DNA from: Streptococcus pantholopis
GTDB taxonomy: Bacteria; Bacillota; Bacilli; Lactobacillales; Streptococcaceae
NCBI RefSeq assembly: GCF_001642085.1
Contig: NZ_CP014699.1
Coordinates: forward strand, 124,001-188,000
DNA length: 64,000 nucleotides
Direction: 5' to 3'
Shown one piece after another: positions 9,827 through 60,166 of this stretch. The position numbers and the translations under genes were made by a program. Each line of letters opens with the position of its first letter. Positions within the stretch are counted from its first letter, which is position 1. The notes below the pieces were generated by a model. That model saw only the letters and a program-made list of their open reading frames with translations. It was not told the origin of the DNA and did not search any database.

Positions 9827-12800
9827 GTGAAAAGACAGGCGATGAAACAATGGTTTGATTTTAAATATCTGAGATCGCTTCAGTCTCGATATAAAAAATT
9901 AGCAGTCGCATTTGCGATAGTAGTTGTTTTTGTAACCACTTATGCCTTAATTCTGCCGGCCATTACGCTGGATCAGAACACTGCCAGTCAGGAACCCGGT
10001 ATTGAGGCCGCAGAGTCAAATGCTCAAGCGGCAGAAGATGCGCCTCCTGCAGCAGATACAGAAACTGAAAATCAGTCTCAAGCCGATGACAGTGCTTCTC
10101 AAGATACAGCAGAAGATGAGGCTGATTTGATTACTCAGCCAACGAGTCTGCAGTACAGCGGGAATAATTATGAGATTACGGTTAACTTTGATGCAGATGC
10201 GAAACTGCCTATAGGAGTGGAACTCAAGGTTGAAGAAATCAAAGAAAGTTCGGACAGTTACGCAGCTCATTATGAGCAGACCAAAAAAGCGCTGGACGGT
10301 GATGAGCTGTCCTATGCAAGATTTTTTGACATTTCCTTTGTCTACCAAGGCAAGGAAGTCGAACCCTCAGCTGCGGTAGAGGTGCAAGTCAGCTATCCTG
10401 AGGGACTGAAAAAAGAAAAAGACAGCGAACTTTTGGCTGTGCATTTTGCCGATAACAGTGATAAAACAGACCTTCTTGCGGTTGAATCAAGCGAAAAAGA
10501 CGGAAAAATATCGGAAGTCAGCTTCTCAGCAGACAGTTTCTCTGTTTATGGTGTCGTGCAGCGCGGTATCACCATCGAAGGGGTCAACTACTATACGGTC
10601 AAGTTTGTTTATACAGATAATGACGGTAAGGAGCAGGAAATTTCCACTTTGGTTGATGTCAAAGAAGGGGCCACTATTGGCTCGCTTCCTGAGGATCCTT
10701 TTAAATCGGGCTATCGTTTCGATCATTGGGAAAACAAGGAGACTGGCGAAACCGTTACAGCGGATACGCCGGTTACAGATGATATGACGGTTGAGGCTGT
10801 CTTTACTGATATCTCAATCTATACTGTGACTGCCAATTATTTTTACCATAATAACAGTGCTGGCCGAGATGTGACTTTTGATACTGAGATTTACCAGATT
10901 GAAGAGAATGACACACCTTACCGTATTACGCCCCCTGCTTCTACCGAAGTCAGCAAGGGCGAAGATACCAGCCTACCTGCTGATGCAATTTACTATCCCC
11001 AACAGTCTTTGATTGAACTTAAAGGGGAAGACTTAGCCGCTAAGGATGCCGCTGACGGAAAAGAAGATCAGAAGATAACCATTAATGTTGAGTATGTGCC
11101 TTACACAGCAGAATATGATTACGTCTATATGCTGAAAGACCTTGACGGTGAAGGCTATTCTGAAATAGAAACGGTGCATGCTTACGGTGTTCTCGGATCA
11201 ACTGTAAGACCGCAGGTTCTTTCCTATGATTATGCCAATTTTGAAAAAACAGAATCGGTCGAGATTAAAGAGGCTAAAGGGCAGAAGCTCTATGTCTACT
11301 ATACCAGAAAGAGCTACACACTTTCCTATGATACCAAAGGTGGCTCTTATATAGCACCGCAGACCGGTCTCTACCAGAGCAAGCAGCCTCTGACAGAGAC
11401 AGTTCCTACTAAGACAGGCTATGATTTTGTCGGCTGGCATGAAAAGGCTGATTTGTCTGATGAGGCTAAAACCAGCGGGTCAGTGACTTTAAATAGTGAT
11501 AAGACCCTTTACGCTGAATGGAAAGGTAAGACAGTTGATTATACCATTGTCTACTATAAAGAGCAGTATGATAACAGCAGCGGGACGACCCGCTTTGTCT
11601 ATGACAGTGCCAAGAGTGCACAGGGACAGGTTGGGACAACGGTTTCAGCTGCCGATGCTCCAGCAATCAGCACAGATACTACCGGCTATGAAAAAGACAG
11701 CGCACAAAATGCTGACTCCAAAGTGGAAATAGCCGCCGATGGTTCCTCAATTTTAAAAGTTTACTATAAACTGAAACGCTATACTTTTATCTTTGATTTG
11801 AACGGTCCAAGTATTGATTACAACTGGGAAACAACCGGCAAAATTAATAAAAACGGACAAGTTTATTCCGGAAGTCAGTATCGCATTTCTGATGTAGTTC
11901 TAGGTCAGGATGTTTCTGCGGTTTGGCCATCCGGTACCGATGAAGTTTATGACACTTCTAGTAGACAGTGGCTTTTTGTTGGCTGGATAAATCCAAGCAA
12001 TGGGAATATTTTGTTTACAACCAGACGGTTTGAAGTGACGCCGGATATGATACTAGGGGCAGATGCTAACAATCAAAAAATCTACACAGCCAGATGGCGC
12101 GAAGATGTAGTTACTTTTAATGTTGAGTACTATCTGCAGTCTGCCGATGACCCGTCTGTCTATGTAAAATCTGAAACTTACAGTCAATCTTTTGCTAGTA
12201 CTTCAGGGTCAACGCTTAGCCCAAAAGAAATCAGCGGCTTTACTTACAGAAATGGGACACCGAGCGGTTATTCGGGAACAAATGTTAATAATTATGGAGG
12301 TACTTACCGTTTCTACTATAACAGAGACAGTTTTGAAATTGATTATTATTATGGCAGCAGCAAGATAGAGACTAAGTCGAACATTCTTTTTGATGCCAAT
12401 ATTAATAACAAAACTTATAACTTCACGCCGTCCCGGCCAGATGGTGTTGATGAGGATTATACTTGGGGCGGCTGGTATGCCGATGCGGGGCTGACAACAC
12501 CTTACGACTTTGCGACCATGCCGGCTAGCAATGTGGTCCTCTATGCTAAATGGCAAGCACCGAGCTTCAAAGTGACTTTTGACACCAATGGCGGTGACAG
12601 CCAGGCACCAGCCGCTCAGACTGTTGAAAAATATAAGGAAGCTAGCTTCCCAGACAGCCCGACTAAAAAGTATTATGATTTTGTCGGCTGGTATACAGAG
12701 CCTGACGGCGGTGAACTTTATGACTGGTCCAAGCCGGTGACTGAGGATATCACTCTCTACGCTCACTGGCAGCTGAAACCACTGACCTATACCGTCCGCT

Positions 12801-55802: not shown

Positions 55803-56019
55803 AGTACGATGGGTATGTCGTACTAAAAAGATAAACCGTCTTAAACTTAAAAATTTTGTCTACGACCTATAACATTTTATAAATATTATTTTATAAATAT
55901 TTCTAAAACATTGATTAATTTTAAGTGGAATAATACAATTTAAAAATAGTATACATAGTAGATGTGAAGGAAAAAGAAAAAAGTTGATTTTTTCTTTTTG
56001 ACATAATTGAAATCTGAAT

Positions 56020-56799
56020 TTACTTTACCACAATGTCTCCAGTTCTTACTCGAATAATTAAATGATTTTTTTCAGAAGTATTTTTTATATATGGTTTGAT
56101 GACAGAATCTCCAAATTTTGAAGAAGTAGTCAACTTAATATCTTTTGCGGCTTCTTCTGATAAAGTAATATTTAAATCACCCAAATTAGCATAGAACTGA
56201 ACATTTTCTAAAATGTTTAGTGATGTCGCTTCCCAATCTCCAGTATTAATATTGATTTTGAAATTTGAAAGTTTTGTATTTTTTGTTATAAGATCACCAA
56301 TCTTTGTTCTTATTTCACCATGCATGCAATTTGAATTTAAAATTGTAATATCTCCTGTATCTTGAATAATTTTTATACTTGATAGCTTCTGATCTTTAAT
56401 TGATATATTACTGATATAACTATCAATGGTAATATCATTTATAATAGATGATTTTGGAATTTGGATAGTTACATAATTAGAGTTGCTTGTATTAGCAAAG
56501 AAATTGGAATATTTTTTTGATGATTCTTTAACTAATAGTTGGTTATTTGAAATTTTATAATCAAATTTCTCATTTGTTTTTTTATCAAAAAGCAAGTGAG
56601 CGCTATTATCAGGACTAGTTTCTATATTGATATTTTTGAATTGTGTGATGATTTTAATTGAATTAAAATCAGGTAAAACCACACTTTTGTTATTATTAGT
56701 TGAAATTTTAGAGTTTGATAAATTATATAATAAGCTTAGAGTATATATAATTACTACTACTATACCGCCAATAATGATAGATAAAATAAACTTTTTTAT
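56020..56799 (-). CDS. DUF4097-like beta-helix surface protein, probable ATA start
   Basis: The frame reads KKFILSIIIGGIVVVVIIYT, a clear membrane anchor, directly after an ATA at 56799-56797 that lies five bases behind GAGGAG. A stop codon four codons upstream rules out any other upstream start, and the next usable start (GTG at 56682) would remove the anchor. The 259-aa product continues with repeated beta strands (IKIIQDTGDITILNSN, FYANLGDLNITL, IRVRTGDIVVK) like the DUF4097 proteins of LiaG type. It is divergent from the thiazolylpeptide precursor and may be a self-protection or envelope-sensing protein. Confidence 0.65.
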   Translation of the reverse strand: MKKFILSIIIGGIVVVIIYTLSLLYNLSNSKISTNNNKSVVLPDFNSIKIITQFKNINIETSPDNSAHLLFDKKTNEKFDYKISNNQLLVKESSKKYSNFFANTSNSNYVTIQIPKSSIINDITIDSYISNISIKDQKLSSIKIIQDTGDITILNSNCMHGEIRTKIGDLITKNTKLSNFKININTGDWEATSLNILENVQFYANLGDLNITLSEEAAKDIKLTTSSKFGDSVIKPYIKNTSEKNHLIIRVRTGDIVVK

Positions 56800-56830
56800 T
56801 TCGTCTCCTCAAAAAAAGTTGATTATTCTA

Positions 56831-56887
56831 ATTATCTGTCAGTTTAATTAAAATTAAATTGACAGATAATAGAAAAAATAGTAAAAT
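56831..56887 (+). promoter_or_regulatory. Palindromic operator and promoter of the thiazolylpeptide unit
   Basis: TTGACA (56859-56864) and TAAAAT (56882-56887), 17 bases apart, form the promoter. A 40-base palindrome (56831-56870, arms ATTATCTGTCA and TGACAGATAAT, few mismatches in the centre) overlaps the -35 and lies between the two divergent genes, so one regulator could control both. No regulator gene is left in the island. Confidence 0.65.
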
Positions 56888-56922
56888 ACAACTGTGTTTT
56901 AGTATAGAGAGGAGAAAAATCA

Positions 56923-57093
56923 ATACAAAAGGAAGTAACACAGCTTCTTGATGAATTAGAATTGGATTTGCAATTCTCAGTTGTTGAACTTGAAGATGTT
57001 ACAGCATTACCTGAGACAGCCGCTTCTAGTGGTTCAACATCATGTTCAGCATCATCAACATGTGGTTCAAGCTCTTGTTCTACATGTACATAG
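56923..57093 (+). CDS. Thiazolylpeptide (TOMM) precursor peptide, probable ATA start
   Basis: The frame has no ATG. AGAGGAG (56908-56914) is followed 8 bases later by ATA, the only sensible start, giving 56 aa. The N-terminal part is acidic (LLDELELDLQFSVVELEDV), then TALPETAAS, the leader end typical of thiopeptide and lactazole-like precursors. The core is SGSTSCSASSTCGSSSCSTC plus T: from residue 35 it is 22 residues with 11 Ser, 4 Thr and 4 Cys, and otherwise only Gly and Ala. Such cores are turned into azoles and dehydroamino acids by cyclodehydratase and dehydratase enzymes, none of which remains nearby. Confidence 0.75.
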   Translation: MQKEVTQLLDELELDLQFSVVELEDVTALPETAASSGSTSCSASSTCGSSSCSTCT

Positions 57094-57125
57094 GATGTAT
57101 TATTAAGAGCTGGTATTATCCCATT

Positions 57126-57172
57126 GAGCTTTCCATATTGATTGAGTGGAAAGCTCATTTTGTTGATTTTTT
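57126..57172 (+). terminator. Attenuator hairpin between precursor and ABC genes
   Basis: GAGCTTTCCA (57126-57135) pairs perfectly with TGGAAAGCTC (57147-57156), followed by interrupted T sequence. Partial termination here would give more precursor than transporter mRNA, a usual bacteriocin arrangement. Confidence 0.7.
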
Positions 57173-57178
57173 ATAAAT

Positions 57179-58078
57179 ATGTTTTTAGAAGTATCAAATG
57201 TGAGTAAATTTATAGCTGGAAAGAAAATTATTGACAATGTCTCTTTCGAGTTAAAAGAGAATGAAATCTTAGGAATAGTAGGCCGTAATGGTTCAGGAAA
57301 AACAACTTTATTTAAAATTCTACTGTCTATGTGGGATTTTGATGAAGGTGATGTAGTATACTATTGTGAACCAAATTTAAATTTTAAACAAGATATTGGC
57401 TATTTACCAGAACAAAGGGGGCTGTTTAACAGAGAAAAAGTAATTAATCAATTGAAATTATTTGCTCAACTAAAAGGATTGAATAAACAAACTGCTTCAG
57501 AGAAAATCACTTTTTGGTTAGATTTTTTTGAATTAGGAGAATTAGCTGATTATCCTATAAATCAACTTTCAAAGGGAAACCAGCAGAAAGTACAATTTAT
57601 TTTGAGTGTTTTAAACGAACCACGATTATTAATTCTTGATGAACCTTTTAGTGGTTTAGATCCTTTAAATAGATTATATTTTGAAAATGCGATAAAACTT
57701 TTAAAAAAAAGTGGAACGACTATTTTGTTTTCGAGTCATGATTTAAAAAACGTAAACAATCTATCAGACAGAATCTTAATGCTAAAAAATGGTGTTATTG
57801 CTGAACAAGGTAGAGTTGAAGATATTTTGAAATATTATACAAAATTTGTGACGATAAATTTAGAATATCAAAAATTAATTCCTGACTTACAGATTCAGCT
57901 AGAAGAAAAAAATATAAGGTACTCCATTCTAGCTACGGATATGACGATTAATTTATCAAAAGACATTGATCAGCAAATTTTTGAACAAATTTTTACTACT
58001 AAAAATCTAAAAATGAATTTTTTCACCCCAAACTTTGAAGATGTTTTTAAATTTATCAATTTGGAGGAGAGAATATGA
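57179..58078 (+). CDS. ABC transporter ATP-binding protein of the thiazolylpeptide island
   Basis: The 299-aa ATPase has Walker A GRNGSGKTT, signature LSKGNQQKV, Walker B LLILDEPFSGLDP and the H-loop FSSHDLKNV. A C-terminal DUF4162-like part follows. It overlaps the permease by four bases. Its role is probably export of the mature peptide or self-immunity. There is no good SD before the ATG. Confidence 0.82.
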   Translation: MFLEVSNVSKFIAGKKIIDNVSFELKENEILGIVGRNGSGKTTLFKILLSMWDFDEGDVVYYCEPNLNFKQDIGYLPEQRGLFNREKVINQLKLFAQLKGLNKQTASEKITFWLDFFELGELADYPINQLSKGNQQKVQFILSVLNEPRLLILDEPFSGLDPLNRLYFENAIKLLKKSGTTILFSSHDLKNVNNLSDRILMLKNGVIAEQGRVEDILKYYTKFVTINLEYQKLIPDLQIQLEEKNIRYSILATDMTINLSKDIDQQIFEQIFTTKNLKMNFFTPNFEDVFKFINLEERI

Positions 58079-58965
58079 GGAGATATTTTTCGTTTCTGAA
58101 AACATCTATGCTAACTATTTTGAATATGAAAACTAGTTTATTGGGATTAATCTTTAATTGTTTGTTAGCGACAGCTTTAGTAGTTATATCAAAGATTTTT
58201 AATATTAATATTTTTGATTATTTTGTTAGAAATATTTCTCTAGAAATTATTATTAAAGTTGTATTTTTTATTATAGCATTATTACTATTTGCGGGAGTTT
58301 CTGCACTAATGCAATCAATCATAGTAGATAGAGATAGCAAAGTATTTGAAGTAATTTCTGTTAATATGTCTGAAAATCACTATATAATAGGGAAAATCAT
58401 CTCAGCAGTTTTATTGGTGTTTGTATCGTTTGTAAATCAAATTTTATCACTAGTATATATGTGGGGATTAAATGCGATTTTATATGGTAACTCTGTTACA
58501 TTAAAAATTGACTTCAATGTTTCAGTATGGAGCTTATTGAGTTCAATATTGTTAATTATATTGAGTGTGATACTATCATCGTTCTTGGTGTTATCAATAT
58601 CAATTAAAGTCAATAACATAAATGAAGCCTCAGGAACTGCGCTTGTTGTTTTAACTCCATACATTGTCTCTTTAATCGTTATTTTATTTTTACCAAATAA
58701 CATTGAAGAGCTGTCTCGAGTAAGTGAATTGCTTCTATGCATACCGCTAATAACTCCAATATTTTTGTTATTAAATATTTTCGTTAATGGATTCAGTATA
58801 ATACAAATAGTTGCTATTTTTTACATTATACTACAGATAGTTGCTATGTATTTTATAACACACAAAATATATAGAACTGCCTATTATAACAATAATAGTT
58901 ATAAACTATTGGAGTTATTTAATTTAATTTTTGTAAAGGAAAAAAAATATGCTAGAAATAAGTAA
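58075..58965 (+). CDS. ABC transporter permease of the thiazolylpeptide island
   Basis: The 296-aa protein has about six membrane helices with a long first loop, the ABC-2 pattern (NatB/YhaP-like). It overlaps both the ATPase before it and the truncated gene after it, showing a tightly packed operon. Confidence 0.75.
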   Translation: MRRYFSFLKTSMLTILNMKTSLLGLIFNCLLATALVVISKIFNINIFDYFVRNISLEIIIKVVFFIIALLLFAGVSALMQSIIVDRDSKVFEVISVNMSENHYIIGKIISAVLLVFVSFVNQILSLVYMWGLNAILYGNSVTLKIDFNVSVWSLLSSILLIILSVILSSFLVLSISIKVNNINEASGTALVVLTPYIVSLIVILFLPNNIEELSRVSELLLCIPLITPIFLLLNIFVNGFSIIQIVAIFYIILQIVAMYFITHKIYRTAYYNNNSYKLLELFNLIFVKEKKYARNK

Positions 58966-59044
58966 AGTAAGTAAATCAATACAAGAAGGAAAGTCTAGAG
59001 AAATTTTGAAGAATGTTGATTTGAAAATGTACCTTTGTCAATGA
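58949..59044 (+). pseudogene. Truncated ABC ATPase gene at the IS boundary
   Basis: AAAGGAAAAAAAT precedes an ATG at 58949 that begins MLEISKVSKSIQEGKSREIL and continues KNVDLKM, the start of a MacB/LolD-type ATPase. The frame stops after 31 codons exactly where the IS element begins, before any Walker motif. The rest of the gene and whatever followed it are gone. It shows the island once extended further. Confidence 0.7.
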
Positions 59045-60126
59045 TGTGAGACTAACAATTCTCATTTGAAGCTATCCCTTTGTTAAGCTTTACTAGGAGC
59101 TAGCTCCTAGTAAAGCTTTTCTGATGTCGATAGGAGATTGCCACCCTAATGTTTGCATGGGGAGCCTATTGGAACGGTAGAGGTAGGCGCTCATCTGTTT
59201 GATGAGGTCGTCATAGGAGTAGAATTGTAAGTGCTGGTAGAAACGTCTGTTGTCGTTTCGGTGGCTCCTTTCCACCTTTCCATTGTGTCTAGGTGTTCTG
59301 GGTCTGATACACTTGTGCTGGATTCCTAATTCTTCACAGAGCAGGTCAAGCGGGTGTCTTCTCTTGGTTTCCCTAAAATGCGTAAACTCAAAGCCATTGT
59401 CAGTTTGCAGGATTTGAGGCTTGTAGCCAAAGTACTGGATGGCCATTTTGAGAAACTGGACGGTAGAATGGGACGACTGCTCCTTGAAGGGGTAGATAAA
59501 GCGTTCCCTTGAAGCCTCATCGATGACGGTGTACTGGTAGAAACGATCAGGAAGTTTTCCTGTGTAGCAGTGTTTAGGGACGAACTTAACATCCATCTGC
59601 CACTTGATGCCCAAGTCAGTCGGTGTGTCATAGGGTTTAGGGGTATAGGTTTTCTTCTTCGTTTTAGGGGATTTGAAGACCCCCAATTTGCGCAAGACAC
59701 GAAAGAGAGAGCAGGGGTGTCTGTTGTATCCCTTGTTTGTCTTGAGTTTGTAGAAGATTTCGATGAGGGTGGCTCTTGGATTTCTTTTGATACTGTTTTT
59801 TATCCAGGAGATTTCTTGTTCGGTATGAGCCAATGGATGTGGAGTCAGAGGCCGATGGGACTTGTCTTTCAGCGATTCTTTAGTGCCATCAAACCTCTTG
59901 TTCCAGCGCATGAGCGAGGCTTTTGAGACTTTGTAGCGGCGGCAGATGAAGGCGACAGAGGCGCCCTTTCGATAGGTTTTAACCGCATGGTAGCGAGTGT
60001 CAAGTGTGTGTGGTAAATAGCGAAGATTTTGTGGTATACTAGTCATGAGAAGATTCCTTTTTGGTGAGTGTTGTGGTACTCTTATCATATCAAGGAATCT
60101 TCTTTTTTGAACCTGATGGTCTCACA
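59045..60126 (-). mobile_element. IS481-like insertion sequence
   Basis: The element is bounded by TGTGAGAC at 59045 and its complement GTCTCACA ending at 60126, with weak similarity further in (TAACA and CATCA). The length is 1082 bases and it holds one transposase gene on the minus strand. No target-site duplication is visible: the outer flanks are CAATGA and TCTATT. That suggests a deletion between two copies or a rearrangement at one end. The family is suggested by the TGT ends and single ORF. Confidence 0.75.
59093..60046 (-). CDS. DDE transposase (rve integrase core)
   Basis: I start at the ATG at 60046 (MTSIPQNLRYLPHT). The 317-aa protein has an N-terminal HTH (SVAFICRRYKVSKASLMRW) and the DDE core: MDVKFVP (first Asp), LQTDNGFEF (second Asp) and NGKVERSHR (Glu). 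No frameshift is needed, unlike IS3. It appears intact and could be active. Confidence 0.85.
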   Translation of the reverse strand: MTSIPQNLRYLPHTLDTRYHAVKTYRKGASVAFICRRYKVSKASLMRWNKRFDGTKESLKDKSHRPLTPHPLAHTEQEISWIKNSIKRNPRATLIEIFYKLKTNKGYNRHPCSLFRVLRKLGVFKSPKTKKKTYTPKPYDTPTDLGIKWQMDVKFVPKHCYTGKLPDRFYQYTVIDEASRERFIYPFKEQSSHSTVQFLKMAIQYFGYKPQILQTDNGFEFTHFRETKRRHPLDLLCEELGIQHKCIRPRTPRHNGKVERSHRNDNRRFYQHLQFYSYDDLIKQMSAYLYRSNRLPMQTLGWQSPIDIRKALLGASS

Positions 60127-60166
60127 TCTATTGTAACGTTACAATATGTAAAAAGCATTGCCATTC

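Follow-up and report, generated by a model that had tools for sequence, protein, structure and literature searches.

A frame of 56 codons plus TAG on the forward strand of the Streptococcus pantholopis genome belongs to the thiazolylpeptide (thiopeptide) precursor family. It occupies positions 56923-57093 of the 64,000-nucleotide stretch analysed here (the window; NZ_CP014699.1, positions 124,001 to 188,000), and its first codon is ATA where its relatives start. The locus is an additional representative of a known precursor family, and its most unusual aspect is the pairing of this ATA with a second one at the start of the divergent neighbouring gene. With the modification enzymes not found in the genome and ATA at the start, the precursor looks like what remains of a gene cluster otherwise lost. 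Probably a biosynthetic cluster was acquired and then lost its enzymes, leaving the precursor stranded in the surviving 5' end.

Translation of 56923-57093 (+) yields IQKEVTQLLDELELDLQFSVVELEDVTALPETAASSGSTSCSASSTCGSSSCSTCT*, consisting of the leader IQKEVTQLLDELELDLQFSVVELEDVTALPETAA and the putative core SSGSTSCSASSTCGSSSCSTCT (57025-57090, +), with the border between them placed by alignment. An earlier note on this DNA, made from the letters alone, had described a 56-codon frame without ATG, with an acidic leader of a quoted ending and a core of only Ser, Thr, Cys, Gly and Ala; the translation agrees on each point, and all 22 core residues are exclusively of these five kinds. The same note proposed a thiopeptide-type precursor and set a search against precursor models as the test beforehand. 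Three curated models score the peptide above their cut-offs: NF033400 (49.7 bits, cut-off 30; E 2.7e-13), TIGR03892 (28.9 bits, cut-off 25) and PF19409 (53 bits, cut-off 23.5; E 2.9e-14), which identifies a genuine thiazolylpeptide precursor sequence. A profile search of the whole genome returned it as the single match at E <= 0.001, and searches of plasmid and phage collections gave zero matches at E 0.01. Among 21 codons aligned with the precursor gene of Sutcliffiella horikoshii, 11 are identical, 9 differ synonymously and 1 nonsynonymously, the pattern expected of protein-coding gene evolution. An alignment of seven precursors contains 12 invariant columns and conserves the acidic leader, the Ser/Thr/Cys-rich core and an SGS...STCGSSSC pattern. 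Precursors of this family have been annotated in streptococci before: in a study of pneumococci a thiazolylpeptide-type bacteriocin is listed together with lantibiotic genes (PMC11261835), and a TOMM survey includes S. gallolyticus gallolytisin clusters and thiopeptides (PMC4603692). A literature search found no publication on the present locus, which does not prove its absence from print.

PF19409 finds a match in 9 of 284 Streptococcus genomes, in 7 of them (S. pantholopis included) above the cut-off. The other six genomes above the cut-off carry nine precursor copies, all starting with ATG and none with ATA; YcaO exceeds its cut-off in all six and PF14028 in five. Sixteen precursor loci were inspected in named genomes; to judge by identical genes, two of them (L032 and L038) derive from the same genomes as G097 and G177 of the Streptococcus set. 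Read by eye, 15 of the 16 start with ATG behind a Shine-Dalgarno sequence, the precursor of Paenibacillus sambharensis starts with TTG or GTG, and none starts with ATA. BLAST places a YcaO relative inside the fetched DNA of 10 of the 16 loci, several of the others ending early, and a Pfam scan found YcaO and Lant_dehydr_N in genome G111. ATG-started relatives beside YcaO, PF14028, nitroreductase or LanB-type genes, for which the earlier note had suggested looking, are present in other streptococci and in bacilli. In two Streptococcus genomes, three (L017, 9416-9986) and two (L018, genome G087) near-identical precursor copies lie in tandem beside thiopeptide-type enzyme genes, and each of these genomes has two YcaO matches.

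The S. pantholopis genome is a single contig of 2,241,302 bases with a completeness of 99.98%, and the species is represented by this one strain. Genome-wide profile searches, with positive controls in relatives, gave zero matches to YcaO (PF02624) and to PF14028. PF04738 likewise gave zero matches in this genome; the control genomes of the same search yielded none either, and in direct scans this model matches proteins of L017 and L033 and misses an 827-aa protein of Streptococcus orisasini. No azoline dehydrogenase (SagB-like nitroreductase) is found among the island proteins scanned. Since YcaO, PF14028 and PF04738 are all unmatched, the precursor is not expected to be matured by the usual enzymes here.

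The transporter announced by the earlier note lies directly downstream. An ABC transporter ATPase of 299 aa (57179-58078, +), before whose ATG a Shine-Dalgarno sequence is not seen, is followed by an ABC-2 type permease of 296 aa (58075-58965, +; PF12698 27.2 bits, below the cut-off of 31.6). Both frames are intact and full-length, and both are homologous to the pair in Sutcliffiella. The permease finds only two weak partial matches among 283 other Streptococcus genomes.

Overlapping the permease end is what is left of a third gene for an ABC ATPase (MLEISKVSKSIQEGKSREILKNVDLKMY...; 58949-59044, +), of which about 27 recognisable codons remain before it is cut at an insertion sequence. With a profile built from 30 ABC N termini, the remnant scores 17.8 bits, a score reached by 0 of 2000 shuffles, and 15.0 bits (again 0 of 2000 shuffles) when the window's own ABC protein is left out of the profile. 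Comparison with Pfam, NCBIfam and PDB sequences gave zero matches, and BLAST against the third gene of the Sutcliffiella locus was not significant (E 0.66). Among 730 local ORFs the best BLAST partner of the remnant is the ABC ATPase of the window itself, with which it aligns in register at the N-terminal end, a score equalled by 53 of 300 shuffles; the purpose-built profile of ABC N termini is the sole method that separates the remnant from shuffled sequence.

The insertion sequence (59043-60128) is present as a single copy in the genome. Its ends, read by eye, are GATGTGAGAC and GTCTCACATC, and no target duplication is seen by eye. Inside it, a transposase with an rve domain is encoded at 59093-60088 (-), and a perfect 34 bp palindrome at one end of the element (59085-59118) surrounds the transposase stop and is perhaps a terminator. 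The secA promoter region follows directly after the element; between the element and secA lies a perfect 18 bp palindrome, TATTGTAACGTTACAATA (60129-60146), a possible operator. The gap between manA and secA measures 4,464 bp here, compared with 121-493 bp in the 14 of 29 other secA loci where both genes are seen. In 500-bp bins, GC content is 24-32% across the island (56000 to 59000) and 36-51% to either side of it. When proteins of the relatives were compared with the permease-to-secA interval by tblastn at E 0.1, none of the six resulting rows (E 0.016-0.082 over 9-73 residues) was a credible remnant of a cluster gene. Two of these rows involve LanB-type proteins (E 0.065 and 0.082) and fall inside the transposase gene, so they are taken as chance.

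Members of the thiopeptide family are made from precursors whose leader guides modification of the core, after which the leader is removed and the product exported by ABC transporters. A thiazolylpeptide cluster was probably acquired horizontally and inserted between manA and secA. In the intact cluster, as judged from the families, the leader would have been bound by a cyclodehydratase complex and would have guided YcaO and LanB-like enzymes to the core, where Cys, Ser and Thr would become azoles and dehydro residues. Once the leader had been removed, the product would leave through the ABC pair, which may also or instead have protected the cell. A deletion at the insertion sequence appears to have taken away the 3' part of the cluster, and with it the genes for the cyclodehydratase and the dehydratase. 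What would still be present of it is a divergent DUF4097 gene, the precursor, the ATPase and permease pair, and the first codons of the third ABC gene. A mature product would not be expected today, and probably the unmodified peptide alone could be made, and at most in small amounts. In both divergent genes the ATA start may lower translation further, or stop it.

The curated precursor scores, the missing enzymes, the gene order shared with Sutcliffiella, the ABC gene cut at the insertion sequence, the low GC content and the wide manA-secA gap all count in favour of a cluster remnant, as do the start codons of the other precursors (ATG or, once, GTG/TTG, and never ATA). Counted against it are four genes (precursor, DUF4097, ATPase and permease) whose frames contain no stop; that the start codon is the sole visible defect in the precursor and DUF4097 genes is odd for neutral decay. 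To these are added the failure of tblastn to find pieces of the missing enzyme genes beside the insertion sequence, the reading by eye of the element's ends and missing target repeat, and an ABC remnant that standard libraries do not recognise.

Upstream of the precursor, a Shine-Dalgarno sequence, AGGAG (56910-56914, +), lies 8 nt 5' of the ATA. A promoter-like TTGACA-17-TAAAAT (56859-56887, +) matches at 11 of 12 positions and is the best in the region; such sites number 17 overall against a shuffle mean of 22.6, and so are not commoner than in shuffles. Between the divergent genes an imperfect palindrome (56822-56879; 28 nt arms, 82% complementary) forms a candidate shared operator/promoter region. 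Downstream, an attenuator-like hairpin with a 12 bp stem and a T-rich tail (57125-57157, +) separates the precursor from the transporter genes. Its stability (z -2.47) is equalled in 4 of 200 shuffles; a terminator scan with a loop limit of 8 counted zero terminators there. At the matching place 3' of the Sutcliffiella precursor, a stable hairpin (z -3.11) is equalled by 0 of 200 shuffles. The arrangement is in keeping with a hairpin that controls the ratio of the precursor to the downstream genes. The strong Shine-Dalgarno sequence, the promoter, the hairpin and the downstream ABC genes had all been proposed before, and each stands, the promoter as a match of the frequency just given.

The divergent neighbour, on which the earlier note is silent, is a DUF4097 / LiaG-like gene of 259 codons plus stop (56020-56799, -). 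Its product matches PF13349 (54.4 bits, cut-off 22.9) and, below the cut-off of 285, NF049997 (34.5 bits). It too opens with ATA (56799-56797), behind the Shine-Dalgarno sequence AGGAG (56809-56805), and its earliest standard start is codon 40. The residues that follow the ATA, KKFILSIIIGGIVVVII, form a typical N-terminal membrane anchor, which is encoded only if translation begins at the ATA. Seven streptococcal DUF4097 homologues have an N-terminal ATG when read by eye, the alignment reaching the start in one of them only (L069). In the precursor alignment the window's ATA lies opposite the Met of an S. gallolyticus copy. An alternative TTG start occurs in the precursor frame at 56962, before which no strong Shine-Dalgarno sequence is visible by eye. 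The start codon is the sole visible defect in either gene. Of 495 possible single changes to the precursor 34 would create a stop, as would 122 of 2322 in the DUF4097 gene, against one that gives the ATA at the start; internal stops number zero in the precursor, DUF4097, ATPase and permease frames. Neutral decay alone hardly accounts for two neighbouring ATA starts in frames that are clean otherwise, an argument made after the fact.

In 464 kb of the genome, 389 frames of at least 100 codons were scanned for a codon behind a Shine-Dalgarno sequence with the first standard start 15 or more codons further on. The scan returned 28 rows of 18 codon types, of which by eye two resemble real gene starts: ATA in the DUF4097 gene, and ATC or CTT in a frame of L047. 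A genome-wide habit of AUA starts is unsupported, with one other gene-like case by eye among the 389 frames. The L047 frame (about 10386-10392; IANHIVERVTERIAPVIED) has a strong Shine-Dalgarno sequence before CTT-ATC and runs for about 22 codons without a standard start; its product may resemble RimP. A frame in L052 (about 1660-1670), presumably infC, reads GTG-AAG-ATT-ATA directly after a Shine-Dalgarno sequence, with the GTG in-frame. A weak start is thus possible there.

An unlikely alternative to a stranded remnant is that the locus still works in a throttled state, AUA being a real but weak start for both divergent genes. The peptide, unmodified or modified by foreign enzymes, would be exported by the ABC pair and serve as a signal, decoy or bacteriocin. 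Both divergent genes have ATA behind a Shine-Dalgarno sequence with otherwise intact frames, and the infC-like frame of this genome may use a weak start as well. In a study of Staphylococcus aureus, infC uses AUA, and AUA or AUU starts with a strong Shine-Dalgarno sequence give about 10% of the AUG reporter output in poor medium, a figure that for one gene rises to as much as 30% in rich medium (PMC13009471). Output in that range would mean that AUA throttles translation and does not abolish it, and with such starts and intact Shine-Dalgarno sequences on both sides of a single palindromic promoter region, the precursor and the DUF4097 protein would be made at a trickle. Against a working locus stand the modification enzymes not found in the genome, the truncated third transporter gene and the ATA start found in 0 of 9 precursor copies in six other Streptococcus genomes. 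A variant in which the locus stayed under tight control of its translation after the enzymes were lost, as a throttle on a stranded precursor and not by random decay, is slightly less likely again.

It is improbable that errors of assembly or base calling produced the two ATA triplets, or that this isolate alone carries them, a standard start being present in the normal gene; truncation of the cluster would hold regardless. For such an error speaks that the two triplets lie 128 bp apart on opposite strands, both within the common context AATA[AC]AAAAG. The G and A versions of this context occur 9 and 18 times in the data (ratio 0.50), which is not clearly depleted and, with such small counts, argues only weakly against an error; a shorter context gives 93 and 173 (ratio 0.54), and the bare ATG/ATA ratio is 0.73. 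A base-calling artefact tied to this motif is unsupported by these ratios, the counts being small.

The earlier note had read the locus as a bacteriocin operon, which would need its enzymes to act in trans. A good precursor, promoter, hairpin and exporter speak for a working operon of this kind. The enzymes are unmatched genome-wide in a single-contig genome of near-full completeness, an insertion sequence truncates the third transporter gene, and the precursor starts with ATA, so this part of the note does not stand. Enzymes acting in trans are rejected for YcaO and PF14028, whose searches had positive controls, and with a weaker control for PF04738, which leaves the proposal highly improbable. 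That the frame is a chance one whose translation is merely serine- and cysteine-rich, as the lack of a standard start codon upstream in frame might suggest, is refuted by the PF19409 E value, the gene order common with Sutcliffiella and the excess of synonymous codon differences, and is scarcely credible.

As this locus shows, a true RiPP precursor can be picked up by curated models in a host that is probably unable to mature it. Unless the enzymes are searched for and the start codon is checked, a precursor match makes the antibiotic potential of a strain look greater than it is. On a small scale, the pair of ATA starts is also a case in which AUA initiation in streptococci can be put directly to the test.

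Within the families described by NF033400 thiazolyl_B, TIGR03892 and PF19409, 10 of the 16 named loci have a YcaO relative nearby, unlike the genome of the window, which has no YcaO match. The closest likeness is to Sutcliffiella horikoshii DSM 8719 (L033), whose precursor has 20 of 21 leader residues in common with that of the window (FSVVELEDVTALPETAASSGS against FSIVELEDVTALPETAASSGS). The order precursor, ABC ATPase, permease and further ABC gene is the same in both, a hairpin follows the precursor in both, and the ATPase and permease are 37.8% and 29% identical to the window's pair. In Sutcliffiella, unlike in the window, the precursor starts with ATG behind a strong Shine-Dalgarno sequence. 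Its transporter pair is followed by a MacB-like ABC gene (669 aa), another gene, an aminotransferase, an SDR-like gene and LanB_N (Lant_dehydr_N). The fetched DNA ends in the LanB_N gene, leaving YcaO outside view, and BLAST at 1e-4 found no DUF4097 relative in the fetched locus.

Streptococcus orisasini SH06 (L019/L038) also resembles the window, with a precursor containing LKEVTALPETAATSGS and STCGSSSCC and a cluster that includes an ABC pair. Unlike the window, its cluster encodes YcaO, PF14028, a nitroreductase and an aminotransferase, together with the 827-aa protein in the place of LanB that has zero Pfam matches. Its precursor starts with ATG, and its ABC ATPase is only 33% identical. 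A third comparison is offered by Streptococcus gallolyticus BI02 (L016/L032), in which the precursor is again followed by an ABC pair, an IS110-type element lies near the contig end, and YcaO and PF14028 are absent from the five neighbouring proteins scanned. It differs from the window in its ATG start, another type of ABC transporter, a piece of a short-chain dehydrogenase gene and a draft contig end. The same genome (G097) has YcaO matches on two other contigs, one above the cut-off and one below, and the S. gallolyticus precursor likewise looks separated from its enzymes.
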